From Roseobacter sp. MH60115 (GTDB lineage Bacteria; Pseudomonadota; Alphaproteobacteria; Rhodobacterales; Rhodobacteraceae): 64,000 nucleotides of DNA. Where the stretch lies: assembly GCF_015644665.1 (NCBI RefSeq), contig NZ_JADOBQ010000001.1:124001-188000 (forward strand). The letters run 5' to 3'. Under the pieces are notes generated by a model that was not told the DNA's origin, did not search any database, and was given only the letters and a program-made list of their open reading frames with translations. Position numbers and translations under genes: made by a program. Positions within the stretch are counted from its first letter, which is position 1, and every line of letters starts with the position of its first letter. This document shows positions 3,010-9,744 of this stretch, in pieces.

Positions 3010-4737
3010 TTACCCAGATATCAGGAGCTTGTTCTGTGCATCGTTTATCCCGACGGCGCTGTTGCCCTTCGGGCGCAGCCACCCACGATAGTGGGCCAGC
3101 AGACCGATCACGGGCAGGCTGAGGCGTACATCAAAGCAAAAACGACCCTCGCAATCCTGAAATTCGGAGGTTTCCGACCGTGGTGCGAGGACCTTGGGCA
3201 AGGGCATTCTGCCAATGGTCCAGGATGCAACAGGCATCTTGATCCTGTCGGTGCTTGCCTGCACCGGGAGGACAAAGGTGAAAGGCCAGAATGCTTCCGT
3301 CAGGCGACCCTCTTTTTGACGGGCCAGACGCGAGCTCAGGATTTTGCCGTCAAAGCTTCTTGTCCAATGCTCAACAAGGCACCTGCGCCTGGAGAGCTTT
3401 CGATCAATGCAGACAGAAACGGGTACGTTTCGCCCGGCCTTTGGGAAGCCGAAAACCCATGCGGCAAGTTTGGGCAGGAACCAGCCTCCCGCATCGATAT
3501 CCGCTTCTCCGGACCAGATGGGAGGCGCTGTTTGTCCGTGAAAATACTGCAAGGCTTGGGGCAACTTTCGAAACCGATCCGTCCCAAGGTGTGCTTCGAA
3601 CAATCCATGATCTCGCGACATCACATCCGTTTTCGTTTTGATCGCGTAGGAACCTGTCTCTACGAGGATGTCAGGCAGTGTCAGGGCGTCATGTGCAAGA
3701 CGCGCGCCGACTGCACCCTCACCTGCCAAGAGTTTCTTGAGCGCGGCGGCAGCAGGCAGGATGGGCACGTTGGGCCCGTGGTCGTCTTTGGCAACGAGGG
3801 TCCAATTGGCTTGTGTAAACGCGCCTTTTGCATCCAGACCGCAGACTGACACCTGCATGCCGCCCCGATCCGAGGTCGGAAGGCGCGTCACTTGCCTGGC
3901 TTTCAGGAGCACCGGGATCAGGAAGCCTGGGTCGGGCAGCAGATGCCATTTGCGCAAGGCCGCAAGTGTTTCAATACCACGTTGCTCAATAGTGGATTCC
4001 AGGCCTGCGGAGAAAGAAACGCGGGATTGGACCTTGTGACGTGGACCAAGATACTCGGCGTCATAGGTCTCTACGGCGGCGACGCGACGGCGGCCCAGAC
4101 CGGCGATGTCAACCACTCTCGGTTCGGACCATCCGGAGGTTTTGGATAATTGGCCGTCCTGCCAGATTGGGGTGTCTTTGCCCGCGTAGCTCAGGATCGC
4201 CTCAATGACGGAACGACCGACTTCGCTTTGACCGCCGGGGGCAATGCAGATGTCGATCGTGTCCAGGCGTTGCCAATCCCGGGCCAGATGATCCACCACA
4301 CAGGCGGACAGGGTCGGGGTCGAGCTTGCGCCGGTCAGCGCTGCGACACCCTTCGCGCGGGCAAGACCCTCCAAGCTTTCGACAAAACCTGCGAGATAGC
4401 TGCGTGCATCGGCCAAATCGATCAGATGCGAACCGGAGGCGACAACACTGCGCGCAACTTCGAAATCGGCGTGCTGGAAGGGCCCCGAACAATCGATGAC
4501 CGCGAAGGGTCTGATGTCGTCCAGCCTTGCGTCCAGATTTTCGCGACAATCGAGCGCGACGCCGTGCACCGGGGTGGCTCCATTCCCCATACGCAGGACC
4601 TTGGCAAAACGCTCTGCCTTGACTGCAGATCTGGACGTGATGAAGAGCTCAATATCTTCAAAAGTCATCAGGTGATGGGCCAGGCGTTTGCCAAAGACGC
4701 CGGTGCCCCCGATGATCAGAATGCGGGACCGTTTCAT
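3010..4737 (-). CDS. Saccharopine dehydrogenase-like NAD(P) protein fused to a C-terminal DUF4166 domain
   Basis: 575 residues when started at ATG 4737. This start is chosen because MKRSRILIIGGTGVFG gives the standard N-terminal dinucleotide-binding GxxGxxG fold, and because it overlaps the stop of the preceding DCC gene by ATGA. Residues 1 to about 370 resemble saccharopine dehydrogenase-like oxidoreductases. Residues about 390-570 resemble DUF4166 and align by eye with the separate DUF4166 protein encoded two genes upstream (shared PQA, DFDGK/GRQS, SE/HH...RFRF..L blocks). It is the last gene of the three-gene operon 5788-3010. Substrate is unknown; the family is often annotated without experimental support. 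Confidence 0.8.
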   Translation of the reverse strand: MKRSRILIIGGTGVFGKRLAHHLMTFEDIELFITSRSAVKAERFAKVLRMGNGATPVHGVALDCRENLDARLDDIRPFAVIDCSGPFQHADFEVARSVVASGSHLIDLADARSYLAGFVESLEGLARAKGVAALTGASSTPTLSACVVDHLARDWQRLDTIDICIAPGGQSEVGRSVIEAILSYAGKDTPIWQDGQLSKTSGWSEPRVVDIAGLGRRRVAAVETYDAEYLGPRHKVQSRVSFSAGLESTIEQRGIETLAALRKWHLLPDPGFLIPVLLKARQVTRLPTSDRGGMQVSVCGLDAKGAFTQANWTLVAKDDHGPNVPILPAAAALKKLLAGEGAVGARLAHDALTLPDILVETGSYAIKTKTDVMSRDHGLFEAHLGTDRFRKLPQALQYFHGQTAPPIWSGEADIDAGGWFLPKLAAWVFGFPKAGRNVPVSVCIDRKLSRRRCLVEHWTRSFDGKILSSRLARQKEGRLTEAFWPFTFVLPVQASTDRIKMPVASWTIGRMPLPKVLAPRSETSEFQDCEGRFCFDVRLSLPVIGLLAHYRGWLRPKGNSAVGINDAQNKLLISG

Positions 4738-5135
4738 AAGCCGAACCTGTGCCGGTTTGCAGCGGTTGGAAGAATGCAGTCGTCTCTCTTTCCAAACAGC
4801 CGGTATCGGTTGCGGGCCAGCAGGTCGTAGCCGATGTCGCGGAAGCGCCTTGGCAGACATTGCGTCAAGAGGATCAATCGCGCCGGGCCATTCAAATGCC
4901 GGGCAAGCGCAAGGATGGCGTCAGATTTTTCAAGGGCCGCGCCGTTCTCGATGAACAGGAATGTGACCGGATCATCGGGATCGATACCATGTGTCACTGC
5001 CAGATCGCGGCCCTCCTGCGATTGGATAGCGACAAATCGAATGCTGTCGGTTTTTTCGTGCTTCAGTGTGTACTGCACGCCGCCATCACAAAGCACACAC
5101 AGGCTGTCGAAGACCCAGGTCGACTGGTTGGACAT
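4734..5135 (-). CDS. DCC-type thiol-disulfide oxidoreductase-like protein (DUF393)
   Basis: 133 residues from ATG 5135, which has a good GGGAGG nine bases upstream. The N-terminal VFDSLCVLCDGG motif is the hallmark of the DCC (DUF393) family, a thioredoxin-fold group with a C-x-x-C pair (CVLC). The middle carries the usual SQEGRDLAVTHGIDPDDPVTF region and the end YRLFGKRDDC. It overlaps both neighbours (TGATG upstream, ATGA downstream), so the three proteins are translationally coupled. A redox role is suggested only by the fold; no partner is known. Confidence 0.8.
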   Translation of the reverse strand: MSNQSTWVFDSLCVLCDGGVQYTLKHEKTDSIRFVAIQSQEGRDLAVTHGIDPDDPVTFLFIENGAALEKSDAILALARHLNGPARLILLTQCLPRRFRDIGYDLLARNRYRLFGKRDDCILPTAANRHRFGL

Positions 5136-5788
5136 CAGCTTGATCCTCCCGCGTCCTGAAAGATTGCATCCTGACCGATCAGCATCCCAAAGAGACGATT
5201 GGTGAGGCGCAGCGAAAACCTGAAACGGCCGCCACCCAGATCGTGGTGTCCAATGGTCAGCGCGCCGGGGCTCATCCATCTGGGCAGGCGCATGCGCAAA
5301 CCGCGAAACGACAGGAAGTAGTGGTCGCTTTTGAAGAAGAGCGCGTCATCCAGTGCTTCGGTCCTCAATGCCATACCGATGCCGTAGCCGATGTATTCTT
5401 CCAACCCGGTTGGGCCCGCAAATCTTTTGGAGCTGTGTACCATTTGCGGAAATCCGGATTGACGACCATATTGCCGTATCCAGAATTGCCCGTCTCCCGC
5501 GATATCTTCGGTGACAACCACGATGGCGGGCTGACCGACGCAGGACATGTCATAGGGCAGGGGGCCGCCGACCAGACGTGCCGCCTGCGACAGCAGCCAC
5601 CCGGCCCAATTCATCTGCATATCGGTCACAACCCCCTGATAGGCAACGCTGGCACCACCCCGGACCCTTTTGCCGAAACGCTGTCGGATGGCTTGCGGCA
5701 GCTGGTGCCACATTTCGGGCCCCAGCAGGGTGCTGAAGCGGGTGTCTTTTTGCGGGTTATGCGGGTCAAATCGAGATGTCATCTGCAT
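5135..5788 (-). CDS. DUF4166 domain protein
   Basis: 217 residues consisting of essentially one DUF4166 domain (STLLGPEMWHQLPQAIR near the start, PGALTIGHHDLGGGRFRF near the end). Function is unknown for the family. The ATG at 5788 is preceded by AGGTAA; a second ATG two codons later is possible. It is first in the operon and its promoter region contains the 24-bp palindrome at 5814-5837 that is nearly repeated in the promoter of the regulator gene at 6419. The stop overlaps the start of the DCC gene (TGATG). Confidence 0.75.
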   Translation of the reverse strand: MQMTSRFDPHNPQKDTRFSTLLGPEMWHQLPQAIRQRFGKRVRGGASVAYQGVVTDMQMNWAGWLLSQAARLVGGPLPYDMSCVGQPAIVVVTEDIAGDGQFWIRQYGRQSGFPQMVHSSKRFAGPTGLEEYIGYGIGMALRTEALDDALFFKSDHYFLSFRGLRMRLPRWMSPGALTIGHHDLGGGRFRFSLRLTNRLFGMLIGQDAIFQDAGGSS

Positions 5789-5813
5789 ATTGGTTACCTG
5801 TTCACTTGATCTG

Positions 5814-5837
5814 AAATTTCTGTATTGACAGAAATAA
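5814..5837 (-). promoter_or_regulatory. Operator-like palindrome upstream of DUF4166 operon
   Basis: The 24 bases have the form (A)ATTTCTGT-AT-TGACAGAAAT(A) and match the site at 6407-6430 in 19 of 24 positions. It lies 26 bases upstream of the DUF4166 start; on the minus strand a TTTACA element just upstream (5845-5850) could be a -35, which would place a weak -10 inside the palindrome. Binding by the adjacent GbsR/MarR-type regulator is inferred. Confidence 0.65.
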
Positions 5838-5855
5838 TTTTGTAAATTTTTTGCG

Positions 5856-6419
5856 TCAGCCGGATTTTTTCCCCGTCAGCGTGAGTACTGACAGCACCTT
5901 GTTACCCATTTTCAACAGCAGGTTCAGTTTCGCCTTGGGGACACTCAGCATCTGCGCATACCAACTGTCCGCTGTTGTCAAAAACTCCTGCATGTCCTTC
6001 ATGCGCTTCAGGATGACGGGGTTGAGGTGGCCCTCGTTCTCCGCTGTAGTGACGCAATCGGAAATCAGCCGCATGGCCGGGTCAATTTCGCGCTCCTTAC
6101 GGCCCTGTGCTACGCAGCGCGCGATTTCCCAAACGTCTGTTTCTGCTTCAAAGTGCTCGCGGCGATCTCCGGGTACAGGAACGCGGCGGATCAATTTCCA
6201 ACTCACCAACTCTTTGAGAGAGTTGGATACGTTTGATCGCGCAATGCCCAGTTCTTCCGAAATCTGTTCGGCATTCAAAGGCGAGACACTCAAAAAGAGC
6301 AGTGCCTGTATTTGCGCAACAGAGCGGTTGACGCCCCATTGGCTGCCCATGTCCCCCCAATAGAGGATAAACTGCGATCTTGCATCGGCTTTGTTAGAAT
6401 TATCAGATATTTCTGTCAT
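5856..6419 (-). CDS. GbsR/MarR family transcriptional regulator
   Basis: 187 residues from ATG 6419. The GbsR-like opening (FILYWGDMGSQWGVNRSVAQIQALLF) is followed by a winged helix-turn-helix (PLNAEQISEELGIARSNVSNSLKELVSWKLIRRV, about residues 48-82) and a C-terminal helical dimerisation part. An upstream in-frame ATG (6473) would add 18 residues but has no ribosome site and lies upstream of the best promoter. The start codon itself sits in the centre of the 6407-6430 palindrome, which points to autoregulation. Codirectional with, and 67 bases upstream of, the DUF4166 operon, which carries the same palindrome. Confidence 0.8.
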   Translation of the reverse strand: MTEISDNSNKADARSQFILYWGDMGSQWGVNRSVAQIQALLFLSVSPLNAEQISEELGIARSNVSNSLKELVSWKLIRRVPVPGDRREHFEAETDVWEIARCVAQGRKEREIDPAMRLISDCVTTAENEGHLNPVILKRMKDMQEFLTTADSWYAQMLSVPKAKLNLLLKMGNKVLSVLTLTGKKSG

Positions 6420-6430
6420 GACGGAAATAT
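6407..6430 (-). promoter_or_regulatory. Operator-like palindrome overlapping the MarR-type gene start
   Basis: Near-perfect palindrome, arms ATATTTCTGTC and GACGGAAATAT around AT; with flanking bases it extends to 6406-6431. It covers the predicted -10 element and the ATG of the regulator gene. It is the better conserved of the two copies (other at 5814-5837). Confidence 0.7.
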
Positions 6431-6454
6431 CAGAGAAGAATGGTGATTTGTCAA
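6426..6454 (-). promoter_or_regulatory. Promoter of the MarR-type gene, probably giving a leaderless mRNA
   Basis: On the minus strand a perfect TTGACA (6454-6449) is followed, after exactly 17 bases, by GATATT (6431-6426, four of six matches to TATAAT). Only seven bases separate this -10 from the ATG at 6419, so transcription would start at or next to the A of the ATG. No Shine-Dalgarno sequence is present, consistent with a leaderless transcript. Confidence 0.55.
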
Positions 6455-6663
6455 GGTTTATGGGCGCGCGCATCTGCTGGCGGTGTAGGAACCGTAGCGC
6501 CCGGGAAACAACGGAGTGTTCTGCACCGGGCTAAACGGACTAAAACCGATTGGCGAACGCTCGTTTTATTTCTTTGGATGTTAACGACGTCTTGAGCGAC
6601 ATGATTATGCCTGTAAGGGCTCCAATGCTTTGAGAATGGATGAATTGTTGCTTCGTTTCTCAT

Positions 6664-6703
6664 TTGACACTGGGTGTTTCGGTCAAGTGTCTTCTTTTAT
6701 AAT
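6664..6703 (+). promoter_or_regulatory. Possible promoter/regulatory site in AT-rich leader of the SGNH lipoprotein gene
   Basis: The region 6474-6901 has no credible gene. It is notably AT-rich around 6660-6800. A perfect TATAAT lies at 6698-6703. Upstream of it are nested inverted repeats: TTGAC...GTCAA and GACACT-N14-AGTGTC (6666-6691). The TTGACA at 6664 is 28 bases from the TATAAT, too far for a normal -35, so it may be part of a regulator site instead. Confidence 0.35.
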
Positions 6704-6901
6704 GTTGAAAATAAACAATATTTTTGAAGGTCGCGGCTCTTCGGCGGTTTTTCTTTAAGAGGCATTTAGTGAAAACTGTCTGCATTTCAGATCAGGCTTT
6801 TCCACCCCGTGTTAACGGGTTTTCAGAGATCTCAAAGTACAAAAGATGCTGTGAATGCGCCCATGAGGCGAGGGAGCGGTGACAGATCGGTGGTGGTGCA
6901 G

Positions 6902-7582
6902 ATGAAGTTTCTTTGGGCTCAATTGAGTGTTTTTGTTTTAATCCTTGCCGGATGTGGAGAGACCGTTCCGCATGACGAATCCCCGCGCATTCTGGCGATG
7001 GGGGATTCGATGATGGCCTGGCATGCCGGGCATGATCAGGGCATTGCCGACGGGGTCGAGCAGATACTGAATGAACCCGTCATTGATCGCTCGGTCGTTG
7101 GCGCACGGGTCCTCTATCATCTGCCGGTGACAGGCGCGATGGGATTGAATATTTCCAAGCAGTATGCCCGGGGCGATTGGGACTGGATTATCGTCAATGG
7201 CGGCGGCAACGACCTCTGGCTGGGCTGCGGGTGCAGCCGGTGTGACAATAAGATGGAACGCATGATCGGCCCGAATGGTAAAAAGGGTGAGATTGCGCGC
7301 ATGGTGAGCATGATGCGGCAGTCCGGTGCACAGGTGATCTATGTTGGGTATCTGAGAAGCCCGGGGTTTGGCTCGATTATCGAGCACTGCCGGAATGAGG
7401 GCAATGAACTCGAACGTCGCATCTCACGCATGGCACAAGCGGATCGGGGCGTGCACTTCGTCTCCTTGAAGGATCTTGTGCCGCACGGTGACAGGTCTTT
7501 TCATTCGGGGGACCGTATCCATCCGTCCAAAAAAGCCAGCAGGGCGATTGCCGAACGCATTGCGCGGATCATCGACCGCTAG
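6902..7582 (+). CDS. SGNH/GDSL-family hydrolase-like lipoprotein
   Basis: 226 residues from ATG 6902, chosen because it gives a lipoprotein signal: MKFLWAQLSVFVLILAGC with lipobox LAGC, acylated Cys18. The mature part has SGNH blocks: MGDS (Ser36 nucleophile), a GGGND block with Asn103, and DRIHPS near the end giving the Asp-His pair. A small cysteine cluster C109-G-C111-S-R-C114 follows block III and is unusual. Likely an envelope esterase or glycan O-acyl-modifying enzyme; the substrate is unknown. Its TAG stop shares a CTAG with the stop of the convergent gene. Confidence 0.75.
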   Translation: MKFLWAQLSVFVLILAGCGETVPHDESPRILAMGDSMMAWHAGHDQGIADGVEQILNEPVIDRSVVGARVLYHLPVTGAMGLNISKQYARGDWDWIIVNGGGNDLWLGCGCSRCDNKMERMIGPNGKKGEIARMVSMMRQSGAQVIYVGYLRSPGFGSIIEHCRNEGNELERRISRMAQADRGVHFVSLKDLVPHGDRSFHSGDRIHPSKKASRAIAERIARIIDR

Positions 7583-8682
7583 CCAAGGGTGCAGGGCAGG
7601 CTGGTGCGCCCCATCTGCGCCAGCGTCAGCCCCACTTCCTCCGTGATCAATTCAGAGAAGCGCGTGAGCCCCGCCTCACCACCACCGGCAATCGCAAACT
7701 GCATGGCGCGCCCAAAGAAAACGAAGCTGGCCCCCATCATGTAGGCTTTAACCACATCTTCGCCGGATCTGAGTCCGGTGTCATAGAAAAGCGGAAATTC
7801 CGAGCCGACGGCCTCGCGGATCGCCCGCAAAGACAGGATCGGAGGCGGGGCGGCATCCAATTGGCGACCACCATGGCTGGACACTTGGATTGCATCCACC
7901 CCTTCGGCTTTCAGCCGTGTCGCATCATCCACATGGGTCACACCCTTGGCCACCAGGTTGCCGTCCCATTGATCCCGCAGACGTTTCAGGAAGTCCCAAT
8001 CCGCAGCGGCCCGACTTTCCGTGCGATCAAACTCGAAACCGGGCTCGGTAAAATTTGCCAAACTCGGAGCGCCTGCAGCCAAGGTTGTCAAAGACCAGCG
8101 CGGATGCAGGGCGAAGTCGATGAACTGCATCGGTCCGATCCGGAACGGCATCTTAAACCCGCGTCGCAATTCACGTGGGCGGCGACCGACCTCCGGCACG
8201 TCCAGGGTCATGACCAGCGTCCGGTACCCCGCGGCCTTGGCCCGGTCGACCAGCCGGGCCGTCCCGCTGCCGTCACCGCTGAAGTAGAGTTGGAACCACG
8301 CATGACCCTCGGCGGCACTGATCAGCGTCTCCATCGAGGTCGAGGCGACCGTGGACACACCGAGAGGCACTTGATGCCGCGCTGCCATCCGCGCCAGCAT
8401 CAGATCGGCGCCCGGCGCGGACAGGTTGCACATCCCCATCGGGCTGATGCCGAAGGGAACCAGCCCCGCATGATCGAAAACCGGCACCGAAAGATCGCGG
8501 TCCCTTACGTTGACCAGAACGCGCGGCTGCAATTCGATGTCGCGCAGGGCAGCAAGGTTGCGCGCTTCCGCCACGCCGTTCCCTGCCGCCCCGTCGATAT
8601 AGTCAAACACCATCCACGGCAGGCGCCTGCGCGCAAGGCGGCGGGCATCCGCGTAGTCGTGGATGGCGTTTGCCCCTCCCAA
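7579..8682 (-). CDS. FMN-dependent alpha-hydroxy-acid dehydrogenase (LldD/glycolate-oxidase family); candidate sulfolactate dehydrogenase
   Basis: 367 residues, a full-length FMN TIM barrel. Visible motifs: FDYIDGAAG near the N-terminus, QLYFSGD, AKGV (FMN-contacting Lys) and VSSHGGRQLD with the catalytic histidine and the substrate-carboxylate arginine (usual family form VSNHGGRQLD). These enzymes oxidise (S)-2-hydroxy acids to 2-oxo acids. It is the last gene of the DHPS operon, four bases after comE. HpsN makes sulfolactate and ComDE needs sulfopyruvate, so this enzyme is the natural candidate for sulfolactate to sulfopyruvate. That substrate is inferred from position; lactate or glycolate is possible. 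Confidence 0.8.
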   Translation of the reverse strand: MGGANAIHDYADARRLARRRLPWMVFDYIDGAAGNGVAEARNLAALRDIELQPRVLVNVRDRDLSVPVFDHAGLVPFGISPMGMCNLSAPGADLMLARMAARHQVPLGVSTVASTSMETLISAAEGHAWFQLYFSGDGSGTARLVDRAKAAGYRTLVMTLDVPEVGRRPRELRRGFKMPFRIGPMQFIDFALHPRWSLTTLAAGAPSLANFTEPGFEFDRTESRAAADWDFLKRLRDQWDGNLVAKGVTHVDDATRLKAEGVDAIQVSSHGGRQLDAAPPPILSLRAIREAVGSEFPLFYDTGLRSGEDVVKAYMMGASFVFFGRAMQFAIAGGGEAGLTRFSELITEEVGLTLAQMGRTSLPCTLG

Positions 8683-8686
8683 GGGA

Positions 8687-9241
8687 TCAGGCCTGCACCG
8701 ACTTCATAAAGCGGTCACGGATGACCACCGGGTCCATGGTGATGACGGGCAGTTTGATGTTTCCACTGTCGCATTTGCACACGATCACGGTCATCTTCTT
8801 GCTGTCGATGGCCTGTTGCAGCACCCCGCCCGTGTCCTTGTCCTGACACTCGATGACGTTTTCGCAACCGCAGGCCTTGGCAACCGCCGCGAGCGACGTC
8901 TTTTTGCCGGCATAGGTCGGCTGGTCCCCGGTTGAGCCATATGACCCGTTGTCGACGATCAGCAGAATGAAGTTATCGGCTACGTTGTTGGCGATGGTTG
9001 GCAGCGTGCCAAAGTTGGTCAGAACGGACCCATCCCCATCAATGGAGATGACGGTCTTGTCCTGCGCAAGCGCCACGCCGAGGCCAATGGACGACGACAG
9101 CCCCATCGTGCCCAGCATGTAAAAGTTGGACGGTTGATCGTCGATCATATGCAGCTCCTGGCTGGGAAGACCGATGTTGCAGACCACAAGATGATCCCGC
9201 AGGATCGGAGCGATTTCGCGTAAAACTTCGGAACGGATCAT
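8687..9241 (-). CDS. comE: Sulfopyruvate decarboxylase, beta subunit
   Basis: 184 residues from ATG 9241, which overlaps the comD stop by ATGA. It is the thiamine diphosphate-binding half: the GDGSVLTNFGTLPTIANN block is the TPP/Mg2+ motif (GDG...N), followed by ILLIVDNGSYGSTGDQPTYAG. With ComD it forms the enzyme converting 3-sulfopyruvate to sulfoacetaldehyde and CO2. In methanogens ComDE serves coenzyme M synthesis; in marine Roseobacters it is catabolic in sulfolactate/DHPS use. Phosphonopyruvate decarboxylase is the closest alternative, made unlikely by hpsN in the same operon. Confidence 0.85.
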   Translation of the reverse strand: MIRSEVLREIAPILRDHLVVCNIGLPSQELHMIDDQPSNFYMLGTMGLSSSIGLGVALAQDKTVISIDGDGSVLTNFGTLPTIANNVADNFILLIVDNGSYGSTGDQPTYAGKKTSLAAVAKACGCENVIECQDKDTGGVLQQAIDSKKMTVIVCKCDSGNIKLPVITMDPVVIRDRFMKSVQA

Positions 9242-9744
9242 TGGTCGCCGTAGCCTCCCCAGAAGGACGCATCCGTCAGGATCGCCACAGGTTTGTTGCA
9301 CATGAAAGTGTATTTCAGGATCGTGTCGAGTTCATCCGCATCGCTTTCCTTGTGAAAGTGATAGGTGGGAATGTTGAGCTGATTGAGCAGAGCCTTTGTG
9401 TGCACGGCCATTTCCACCTGGCAGGCCACCGGCTCACGCAGTTCGCCCCGGTAGGAGATCAGCATCGGCAGCGGCATCCGGTAGTATTGCGTCAGCGTCA
9501 CCAGCGTATTGACCGTCACACCGATGGCAGTGTTCTGCATGATGATCGCAGGGCGCTTGCCGCCCATGAATGCACCTGCGCAGAGGCCCATGCCTTCGTC
9601 TTCCTTATTGGAGGGGATGTGGTAGATCTCCTCGCGCGCCTCAACTTCGTCAATGACGCCGGCAAGCTGTTTGCACGGGACTGTGGTGACGAACTCGATG
9701 CCGTTGGCAACGAAGTCATCCACGATTTTGGTATTGATGGACAC
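9238..9744 (-). CDS. comD: Sulfopyruvate decarboxylase, alpha subunit
   Basis: 168 residues, GTG start at 9744 preceded by AAGGAG seven bases upstream. It corresponds to the pyrimidine-binding domain of two-subunit TPP decarboxylases: FVTTVPCKQLAGVIDEV, IPSNKEDEGMGLCAGA with the conserved glutamate, and QNTAIGVTVNTLVTL. It works with ComE in sulfopyruvate decarboxylation. The pair is embedded between a universal stress protein gene and the FMN dehydrogenase gene. Confidence 0.85.
   Translation of the reverse strand: MSINTKIVDDFVANGIEFVTTVPCKQLAGVIDEVEAREEIYHIPSNKEDEGMGLCAGAFMGGKRPAIIMQNTAIGVTVNTLVTLTQYYRMPLPMLISYRGELREPVACQVEMAVHTKALLNQLNIPTYHFHKESDADELDTILKYTFMCNKPVAILTDASFWGGYGDQ

Follow-up and report, generated by a model that had tools for sequence, protein, structure and literature searches.

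A predicted leaderless gene for a probable GbsR/CydE-type repressor, with its start codon at the centre of a probable operator, and a probable second operator coupled to a T-tract ahead of DUF4166

Why would two near-identical palindromes flank a single regulator gene, one of them spread across its start codon? The question arises from a stretch of 64,000 nucleotides of Roseobacter sp. MH60115 (contig NZ_JADOBQ010000001.1), hereafter the window, whose minus strand carries four genes of interest. The regulator is a GbsR/CydE-like MarR-family protein of 187 aa (5856..6419, minus strand), followed by a DUF4166 protein of 217 aa (5135..5788, minus strand), a DCC1-like (PF04134, by Pfam) thiol-disulfide oxidoreductase family protein as gene 3 of the run (4734..5135, minus strand), and an NAD-binding dehydrogenase-like (SDR) protein with a C-terminal DUF4166 (3010..4737, minus strand; Pfam DUF4166 at 392-554), in which the dehydrogenase label was given by eye to a part with no Pfam match. 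An earlier note, made from the sequence alone, had proposed that the palindromes link the regulator to a three-gene module under its control, with autorepression and a probably leaderless mRNA. A GDSL-lipase-like gene lies divergently at 6890-7582 on the plus strand, and 2/80 related loci, L053 and L054, which are the closest, keep it as a neighbour. Further along, two minus-strand ORFs at 8687-9744 match the beta and alpha subunits of sulfopyruvate decarboxylase above curated cut-offs and adjoin an FMN-dependent dehydrogenase (7579-8682) and an alcohol-dehydrogenase-like gene; this neighbourhood is likely a C3-sulfonate cluster.

Direct reading confirmed 19 identical positions out of 24 between the palindrome at 5814-5837 and that at 6407-6430, and a repeat search paired them in a direct repeat of 28 nt (82% identity) with a start-to-start distance of 593 bp. 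The earlier note had placed both palindromes correctly but had drawn site 1 too short at 24 bp, as its arms are 19 nt long and 84% complementary (6400-6418 and 6419-6437). The motif TATTTCYGTNNTGACRGAAATA, with up to three mismatches, was present at two sites in the window and at none in 100 dinucleotide shuffles; no third match at this threshold was found in the 4.76-Mb genome, which bears out the remark that there is no other copy. A looser pattern of the 14-base core gave one extra site with one mismatch (C1:632422), and stray matches of this pattern were as many as those of a reversed control pattern. Further regulon members in this genome were thus rejected, the lone site being at control level. 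We refer to the site at the regulator start as operator 1 (6403..6434 on both strands, including outer TC/GA arms; 18-bp core at 6410-6427, centred on the start codon) and to the other as operator 2 (core 5817..5834 on both strands), which has 14/14 dyad bases and begins 21 nt past the regulator stop.

Conservation was assessed in 81 loci, namely the window and the best 80 of 102 relatives from a scan of 84,980 species genomes; all counts out of 81 or 80 below, and those for the 64 loci with and 17 loci without operator 2, refer to this set. It spans Rhodobacterales, Caulobacter, Sphingomonadales, Hyphomicrobiales and others, and its members are kin, so that the counts are not independent. One locus, L108, is part of the main 81-locus counts and was left out of those for codon usage, spacing between the operators, anti-Shine-Dalgarno pairing at internal ATGs and the mirror of the tract. 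Additional loci came from a family sample (295 genomes with 50 matches, loci being taken from 30 of these) and from phylum and class samples (398 and 385 genomes, of which 64 and 21 matched), which yielded 37 new loci.

The identity of the regulator as a GbsR/MarR-type protein, suggested in the earlier note, is upheld by a Pfam MarR_2 match (E 9.6e-14; 51.7 bits vs a cut-off of 27) and by its best solved-structure match, Mj223 (1ku9; E 1.6e-13, profile positions 11-125), a protein used as structural model of GbsR proteins (PMC7396694). The curated model of the choline regulator CudC (NCBIfam NF047500) gave 41 bits, far short of its equivalog cut-off of 218, which speaks against CudC as an identity and counts against the reading preferred below. 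A tree of 106 regulators fell, on supported branches, into three clades: one of 80 members with DUF4166, its sister clade of 19, and one of 7 that is linked to cytochrome bd. The bd-linked relatives, which occur in the window's own family, precede a cytochrome bd subunit I gene (checked with Pfam in 3/7, by eye in the rest), and a motif scan detected TTTCAG-N6-CTGAAA in 6/7 of them. No cytochrome bd subunit was detected among the six window proteins scanned with Pfam. In Alishewanella sp. WH16-1, the GbsR-type repressor of cytochrome bd, CydE, gave the footprint TATTTCAGAAATTTCTGAAAGTTCA (PMC6096048). This footprint contains TTTC-N10-GAAA, the same outer frame as the operator 1 dyad (PMC6096048). 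Similarly, CioR of Chromobacterium violaceum, also a GbsR-type repressor of a cytochrome bd operon, directly represses its own operon (PMC11837568). The likeness extends to gene order, since in both systems the regulator gene sits in the operon that it represses (PMC6096048, PMC11837568). The window differs from them in that the partner is DUF4166 rather than cydAB or cioAB, and in having a predicted leaderless start and a second, internal operator; its inner half-site, TTTCTGT instead of TTTCAG, also sets it apart from CydE. Because operator 1 and the footprinted CydE operator share the TTTC-N10-GAAA frame, it is likely, by analogy, that the regulator represses its own promoter at operator 1.

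That promoter, P1, consists of a -35 element TTGACA (6449..6454, minus strand) and a -10 element GATATT (6426..6431, minus strand) with a spacer of 17. In agreement with the earlier note, it puts the predicted +1 on the first base (6419) of the regulator ATG (6417..6419, minus strand). P1 has the top score (10/12) among four promoter-like sites in 5000-8000, but the score by itself is no proof, because shuffled sequences yield 2.1 such sites. The related loci are more informative. The operator 1 dyad, TTTCTGT-N4-ACAGAAA (18 bp), is centred on the regulator start with at least 13/14 bases in 81/81 loci, and is complete (14/14) in 69/81. The earlier note had named a lack of conservation beside orthologous regulators as a refuting result; the palindromes proved to be conserved there, and its view that an operator covers the start codon is supported. 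The start codon at its centre is ATG in 78 loci, ATA in 2 and GTG in 1. Outside the core, T and C at 15 and 14 nt upstream of the start (67 and 75 of 81 loci) are mirrored by G and A at +16 and +17 (67 and 72 of 81); therefore, the recognised palindrome appears to be about 32 bp long and to reach codon 6.

The promoter is held in register with this start. TTGAC lies exactly at -35 from the start-codon A in 67/81 loci and TTG in 77/81, with TTG at -36 in 3 further loci; the best promoter-like match is at the -35 place in 69/80. In the -10 region, T is present at -7 in 81/81 and A at -11 in 67/81, and position -1 is a pyrimidine in 80/81. A clade of seven Yoonia/Loktanella loci (L098-L100, L102-L104, L106) has TTGC in place of TTGAC at -35. 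Shine-Dalgarno pairing below -4 kcal/mol was found at 0/81 regulator starts; the mean duplex energy with the anti-Shine-Dalgarno sequence was +0.39 kcal/mol, vs -2.46 at 640 internal ATGs, which are the fair control. The corresponding value for DUF4166 starts, -5.17 (75 loci), is biased low, as the best of the possible in-frame starts was taken. Given TTGAC at -35 in 67/81 loci together with the lack of a Shine-Dalgarno sequence, the leaderless start predicted in the earlier note is strongly supported by conserved sequence and by a geometry kept in 81/81 loci.

Leaderless mRNAs are common in this class, with 375 in Caulobacter crescentus (PMC4117421), and 171 have been reported in Sinorhizobium meliloti (PMC3616915). 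A close counterpart is AcuR of Rhodobacter sphaeroides, a leaderless autorepressor that lacks a Shine-Dalgarno sequence and stands first in its operon, acuR-acuI-dddL (PMC3017554). Its +1 was mapped to the AUG by 5'RACE, and this arrangement is conserved in diverse lineages (PMC3017554). Together with CydE and CioR, AcuR supports the autorepression suggested in the earlier note, by analogy. AcuR is a TetR-family protein, unlike the MarR-family regulator of the window, and its operator overlaps the promoter, with no report in the cited text of the centring on the start codon seen at operator 1 (PMC3017554). Fusions indicated no internal promoter in the AcuR operon, and the cited text makes no mention of a second operator (PMC3017554). 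Only AUG and, weakly, GUG worked as leaderless starts there (PMC3017554); by this analogy, the ATA starts of L073 and L102 count against the leaderless reading. These ATA codons (L073:6001-6003 and L102:1716-1718) lie at the centre of a dyad that is still 14/14, and inspection by eye showed no plausible alternative start in frame nearby. An open-access PMC search for 'GbsR' together with 'leaderless' found no literature.

Operator 2 is present in 64/81 loci, 15-55 nt after the regulator stop and about 580-660 bp inside the predicted P1 transcript; its left half reads TTTCTCT in 33 and TTTCTGT in 22 of the loci that have it. By analogy with characterized regulators, it would most likely act as a roadblock to elongation within the P1 transcript. 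The conclusion reached for Bacillus subtilis GbsR, which belongs to the same MarR subfamily and has half-sites likewise 4 bp apart, was that it forms a roadblock beyond the transcription start, while its relative OpcR blocks a promoter instead (PMC7396694). That species thus divides the two modes between two proteins, and its ligand and targets (choline, osmoprotection) differ (PMC7396694); in the window, one protein would do both at two sites of one operon. A second parallel is the controller protein C.Kpn2I, which stops RNA polymerase within its own transcript (PMC6237814). It is from another protein family and limits itself, since its site is inside its own coding region (PMC6237814); unlike that site, operator 2 follows the regulator gene and would limit the downstream gene only. 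The cited part of the C.Kpn2I report does not mention a T-tract (PMC6237814).

Such a tract is a regular companion of operator 2. In the window it is AAAAAATTT (5844..5852, minus strand), just upstream of operator 2 on the coding strand. TTT occupies positions -12 to -10 from operator 2 in 59/64 loci, in 16/16 loci of the sister clade and in 9/12 of a further sample. A run of at least 8 A/T was found in 50/64 loci with operator 2 vs 0/17 without it, and a looser criterion gave 60/63 vs 1/17. On the tree, this association comes down to only 3 independent changes (sign test median p 0.25), a number with which the test cannot pass 0.05. The Yoonia/Loktanella clade of seven lacks both operator 2 and the tract. 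An ordinary intrinsic terminator was rejected for this region because no hairpin is conserved before the T-tract: the search for a GC hairpin gave a mean fold z of -0.31 over 64 loci, with 11% below -1.5. A hairpin is present in a few loci, e.g., L084 and L101.

The combination recalls RNA polymerase I terminators, in which a roadblock protein (Reb1, Nsi1 or TTF1) acts with a T-rich non-template stretch 15 bp upstream, where the polymerase pauses (PMC12366685), compared to about 9-14 bp upstream of operator 2 for the T-tract here. Those terminators are eukaryotic and an RNA hairpin is essential to them (PMC12366685), whereas no hairpin is conserved before the present tract. In that system, LexA as a roadblock did not support efficient termination (PMC12366685). 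It is conceivable, and we put it forward tentatively as a reading to be doubted more than believed, that operator 2 and its one-sided tract form a repressor-gated, hairpin-less terminator, in which polymerase, halted by DNA-bound repressor on a weak A/U hybrid, would release the transcript. The register for release is imperfect, as a polymerase whose 3' end is at the end of the tract would have a front edge overlapping the operator. Moreover, a review counts Mfd among the chief causes of release when LacI forms a strong roadblock (PMC10310618), so that a T-tract need not be involved. We accordingly give a plain roadblock the larger share.

Other explanations for operator 2 have to be weighed. 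The one that survives best, possible if not probable, assumes no stopping of polymerase: the tract and operator 2 would help the repressor to bind through the shape of the DNA, or would serve gene 2 as a U-rich site for the ribosome (S1). Two points favour it: A/T tracts bend DNA, and in most sister-clade loci, judged by eye, purine-rich bases resembling a ribosome site come after the tract and just before operator 2. However, operator 1 has the same dyad and mostly lacks the tract (TTT at the equivalent place in 8/80 loci); the tract is one-sided, with a mirror AAA in only 9/63 loci with operator 2; and its distance is fixed to operator 2, whereas the distance from the regulator stop to operator 2 varies between 15 and 55 nt.

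The earlier note had assigned operator 2 to the promoter of the downstream operon, here called P2. On this view, P2 would drive the DUF4166 operon, and the T-tract would belong to it. Operator 2 does lie just upstream of DUF4166, its dyad is that of operator 1, which overlaps a promoter, and the constant distance of the T-tract would suit a degenerate -35 element. Nevertheless, a scan for sigma70-like promoters near operator 2 in 63 loci gave scores equal to the distribution for shuffled sequences, at scattered positions, compared to P1 with its match fixed at -35 in 69/80; a consensus scan of this kind may miss an unusual promoter. The 17 loci without operator 2 still have DUF4166 directly behind the regulator, and no promoter signal was found after the regulator stop in them either, so P1 presumably transcribes DUF4166 there. 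The sister clade (L008-L031) has the same two operators in other gene neighbourhoods. Its operator 2 (at least 11/14 bases) was detected in 16/19 loci, and 10 of these 16 have at its centre an ATG from which a frame of 138-167 aa runs, which is probably gene 2. Gene 2 would then be read from a message begun earlier, as a start within or after operator 2 could not serve it. With no promoter signal in loci with or without operator 2, this part of the earlier proposal is probably wrong, and we regard P2 as unlikely.

A repression loop of about 590 bp, formed by repressor bridging the two operators, is less probable still. In 64/81 loci the sites do lie on either side of the regulator gene and are similarly spaced, but this similarity follows from the length of the gene. 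Helical phasing was not seen in the spacings of 63 loci, which range over 579-658 bp (Rayleigh nR2 0.3-0.4 for periods of 10.4-10.55). A roadblock within the P1 transcript thus remains our preferred role for operator 2.

At the other end of the gene, choice of codons indicates what is under constraint at operator 1. Codon 2 is ACA in 80/81 loci, vs 12.6% of the Thr codons in the remainder of these genes; codon 3 is GAA in 81/81, vs 49% of glutamate codons elsewhere; and codon 4 is never ATC, which elsewhere makes up 64% of isoleucine codons. The bias at codons 2 and 3 shows that the DNA and not the peptide MTEI is conserved, and, together with the ATA loci that keep a 14/14 dyad, indicates that the first four residues are read off the operator. 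An alternative start at the in-frame ATG at 6473, which would give 205 aa and draw on a more distant upstream promoter, with MTEI conserved for the protein's sake, is very improbable. In its favour, no stop interrupts the frame up to 6473 in the window, and M1, T2 and E3 are invariant in 26 aligned regulators. Against it, 34/81 loci have no upstream in-frame start and 17/81 have an in-frame stop within 36 nt upstream, codons 2-4 follow the operator rather than the usual codons of these genes, two loci lose the ATG and keep the full dyad, and the -35 and -10 elements would fall inside the longer reading frame.

The phylum and class samples were not picked by peptide pattern, and 18 of their 37 loci had at least 50% identity. 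Among these 18, the ATG at the dyad centre was in frame with the regulator in 17 (L158 was out of frame), and DUF4166 was downstream in 17. Of the 19 loci below 50% identity, L157 and L170 had an in-frame central ATG, L179 an out-of-frame one, and 16 had none. CATG is itself palindromic, so that an ATG may sit in the dyad without being a start, as L158 and L179 illustrate. Distant relatives from the family (26 loci) had a similar dyad, with the start 22-48 nt further on and hence a leader, a figure that depends on the analyst's choice of start codon. Some leadered regulators (L167, L177 and L179) still adjoin DUF4166. These patterns suggest that the leadered state is probably older and that the start codon later moved into the operator.

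What, then, does the regulator control? A DUF4166 gene lies directly after it on the same strand in 78/80 loci, whereas the DCC and SDR genes occur together in 9/80 and an SDR-DUF4166 gene in 10/80. The three-gene module of the earlier note is therefore a local arrangement, and the conserved partner is DUF4166 alone. Two Novosphingobium loci (L109 and L128) keep the regulator and both operators, and DUF4166 was not found in them. In L128, the gene after the regulator is weakly polyketide-cyclase-like; it was rejected as a hidden DUF4166 (hhalign probability 0.2%). The structure predicted for DUF4166 has a nitrobindin-like beta-barrel fold, and the protein is accordingly described here as a predicted nitrobindin/lipocalin-like barrel. 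The likeness is one of fold only: Foldseek gave no match at E <=0.001 (best 2.2e-3, at about 9-12% identity), and a sequence profile search against solved structures detected nothing (best E 0.55). A look for a counterpart of the proximal heme histidine of nitrobindin among 44 DUF4166 proteins showed H181 to be invariant (44/44) and H118 to be present in 40/44. Pfam recovered DUF4166 itself in 44/44 and, weakly, DUF1413 in 7/44 (best E 9e-4); other weak matches were limited to single members. No literature on 'DUF4166' was found in open-access PMC.

Taken as a whole, the reading we consider probable is that of one transcription unit. A GbsR/CydE-type repressor would control a single unit, regulator-DUF4166 (followed by DCC and SDR in this genome), from P1. 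The P1 transcript would begin at, or 1-2 nt from, the A of the regulator ATG, and the regulator would be made without a Shine-Dalgarno sequence, as the conserved sequence indicates. To judge from the CydE operator frame, a repressor dimer on operator 1, overlapping the -10 element, would shut off P1. In most species, a second dimer on operator 2, about 590 bp inside the transcript, would halt polymerases that had escaped operator 1; the effector gene would thereby be held more tightly than the regulator. Some ligand or stress would release the repressor. DUF4166, from its predicted fold, would be a barrel that probably binds a small ligand (lipid or heme) and acts with an SDR enzyme.

Each of the components is known by itself: the leaderless autorepressor, the operator that blocks a promoter, and the operator that acts as a roadblock. 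What appears to be new, on the evidence of sequence conservation, is the coincidence of operator centre, predicted transcription start and start codon in a GbsR/CydE-type autorepressor, together with an internal operator coupled to a T-tract. Start codon, predicted +1 and operator centre fall on the same base pairs in 81/81 loci from several alphaproteobacterial orders, and the second operator is tied to the tract at a fixed distance in two separate clades. This raises the questions of why a repressor gene should lack a leader and whether a protein roadblock with a T-tract serves bacteria as a switchable terminator. If the gated terminator were true, one protein would repress its own leaderless promoter at operator 1 and terminate leak-through transcription of its target at operator 2, so that cells could make the regulator and keep the effector off; this would be the bacterial analogue of the Pol I T-rich element and roadblock. 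For the uncharacterised family DUF4166, the analysis points to a likely regulator and to an enzyme that is a frequent partner, and it adds a prediction of the fold.
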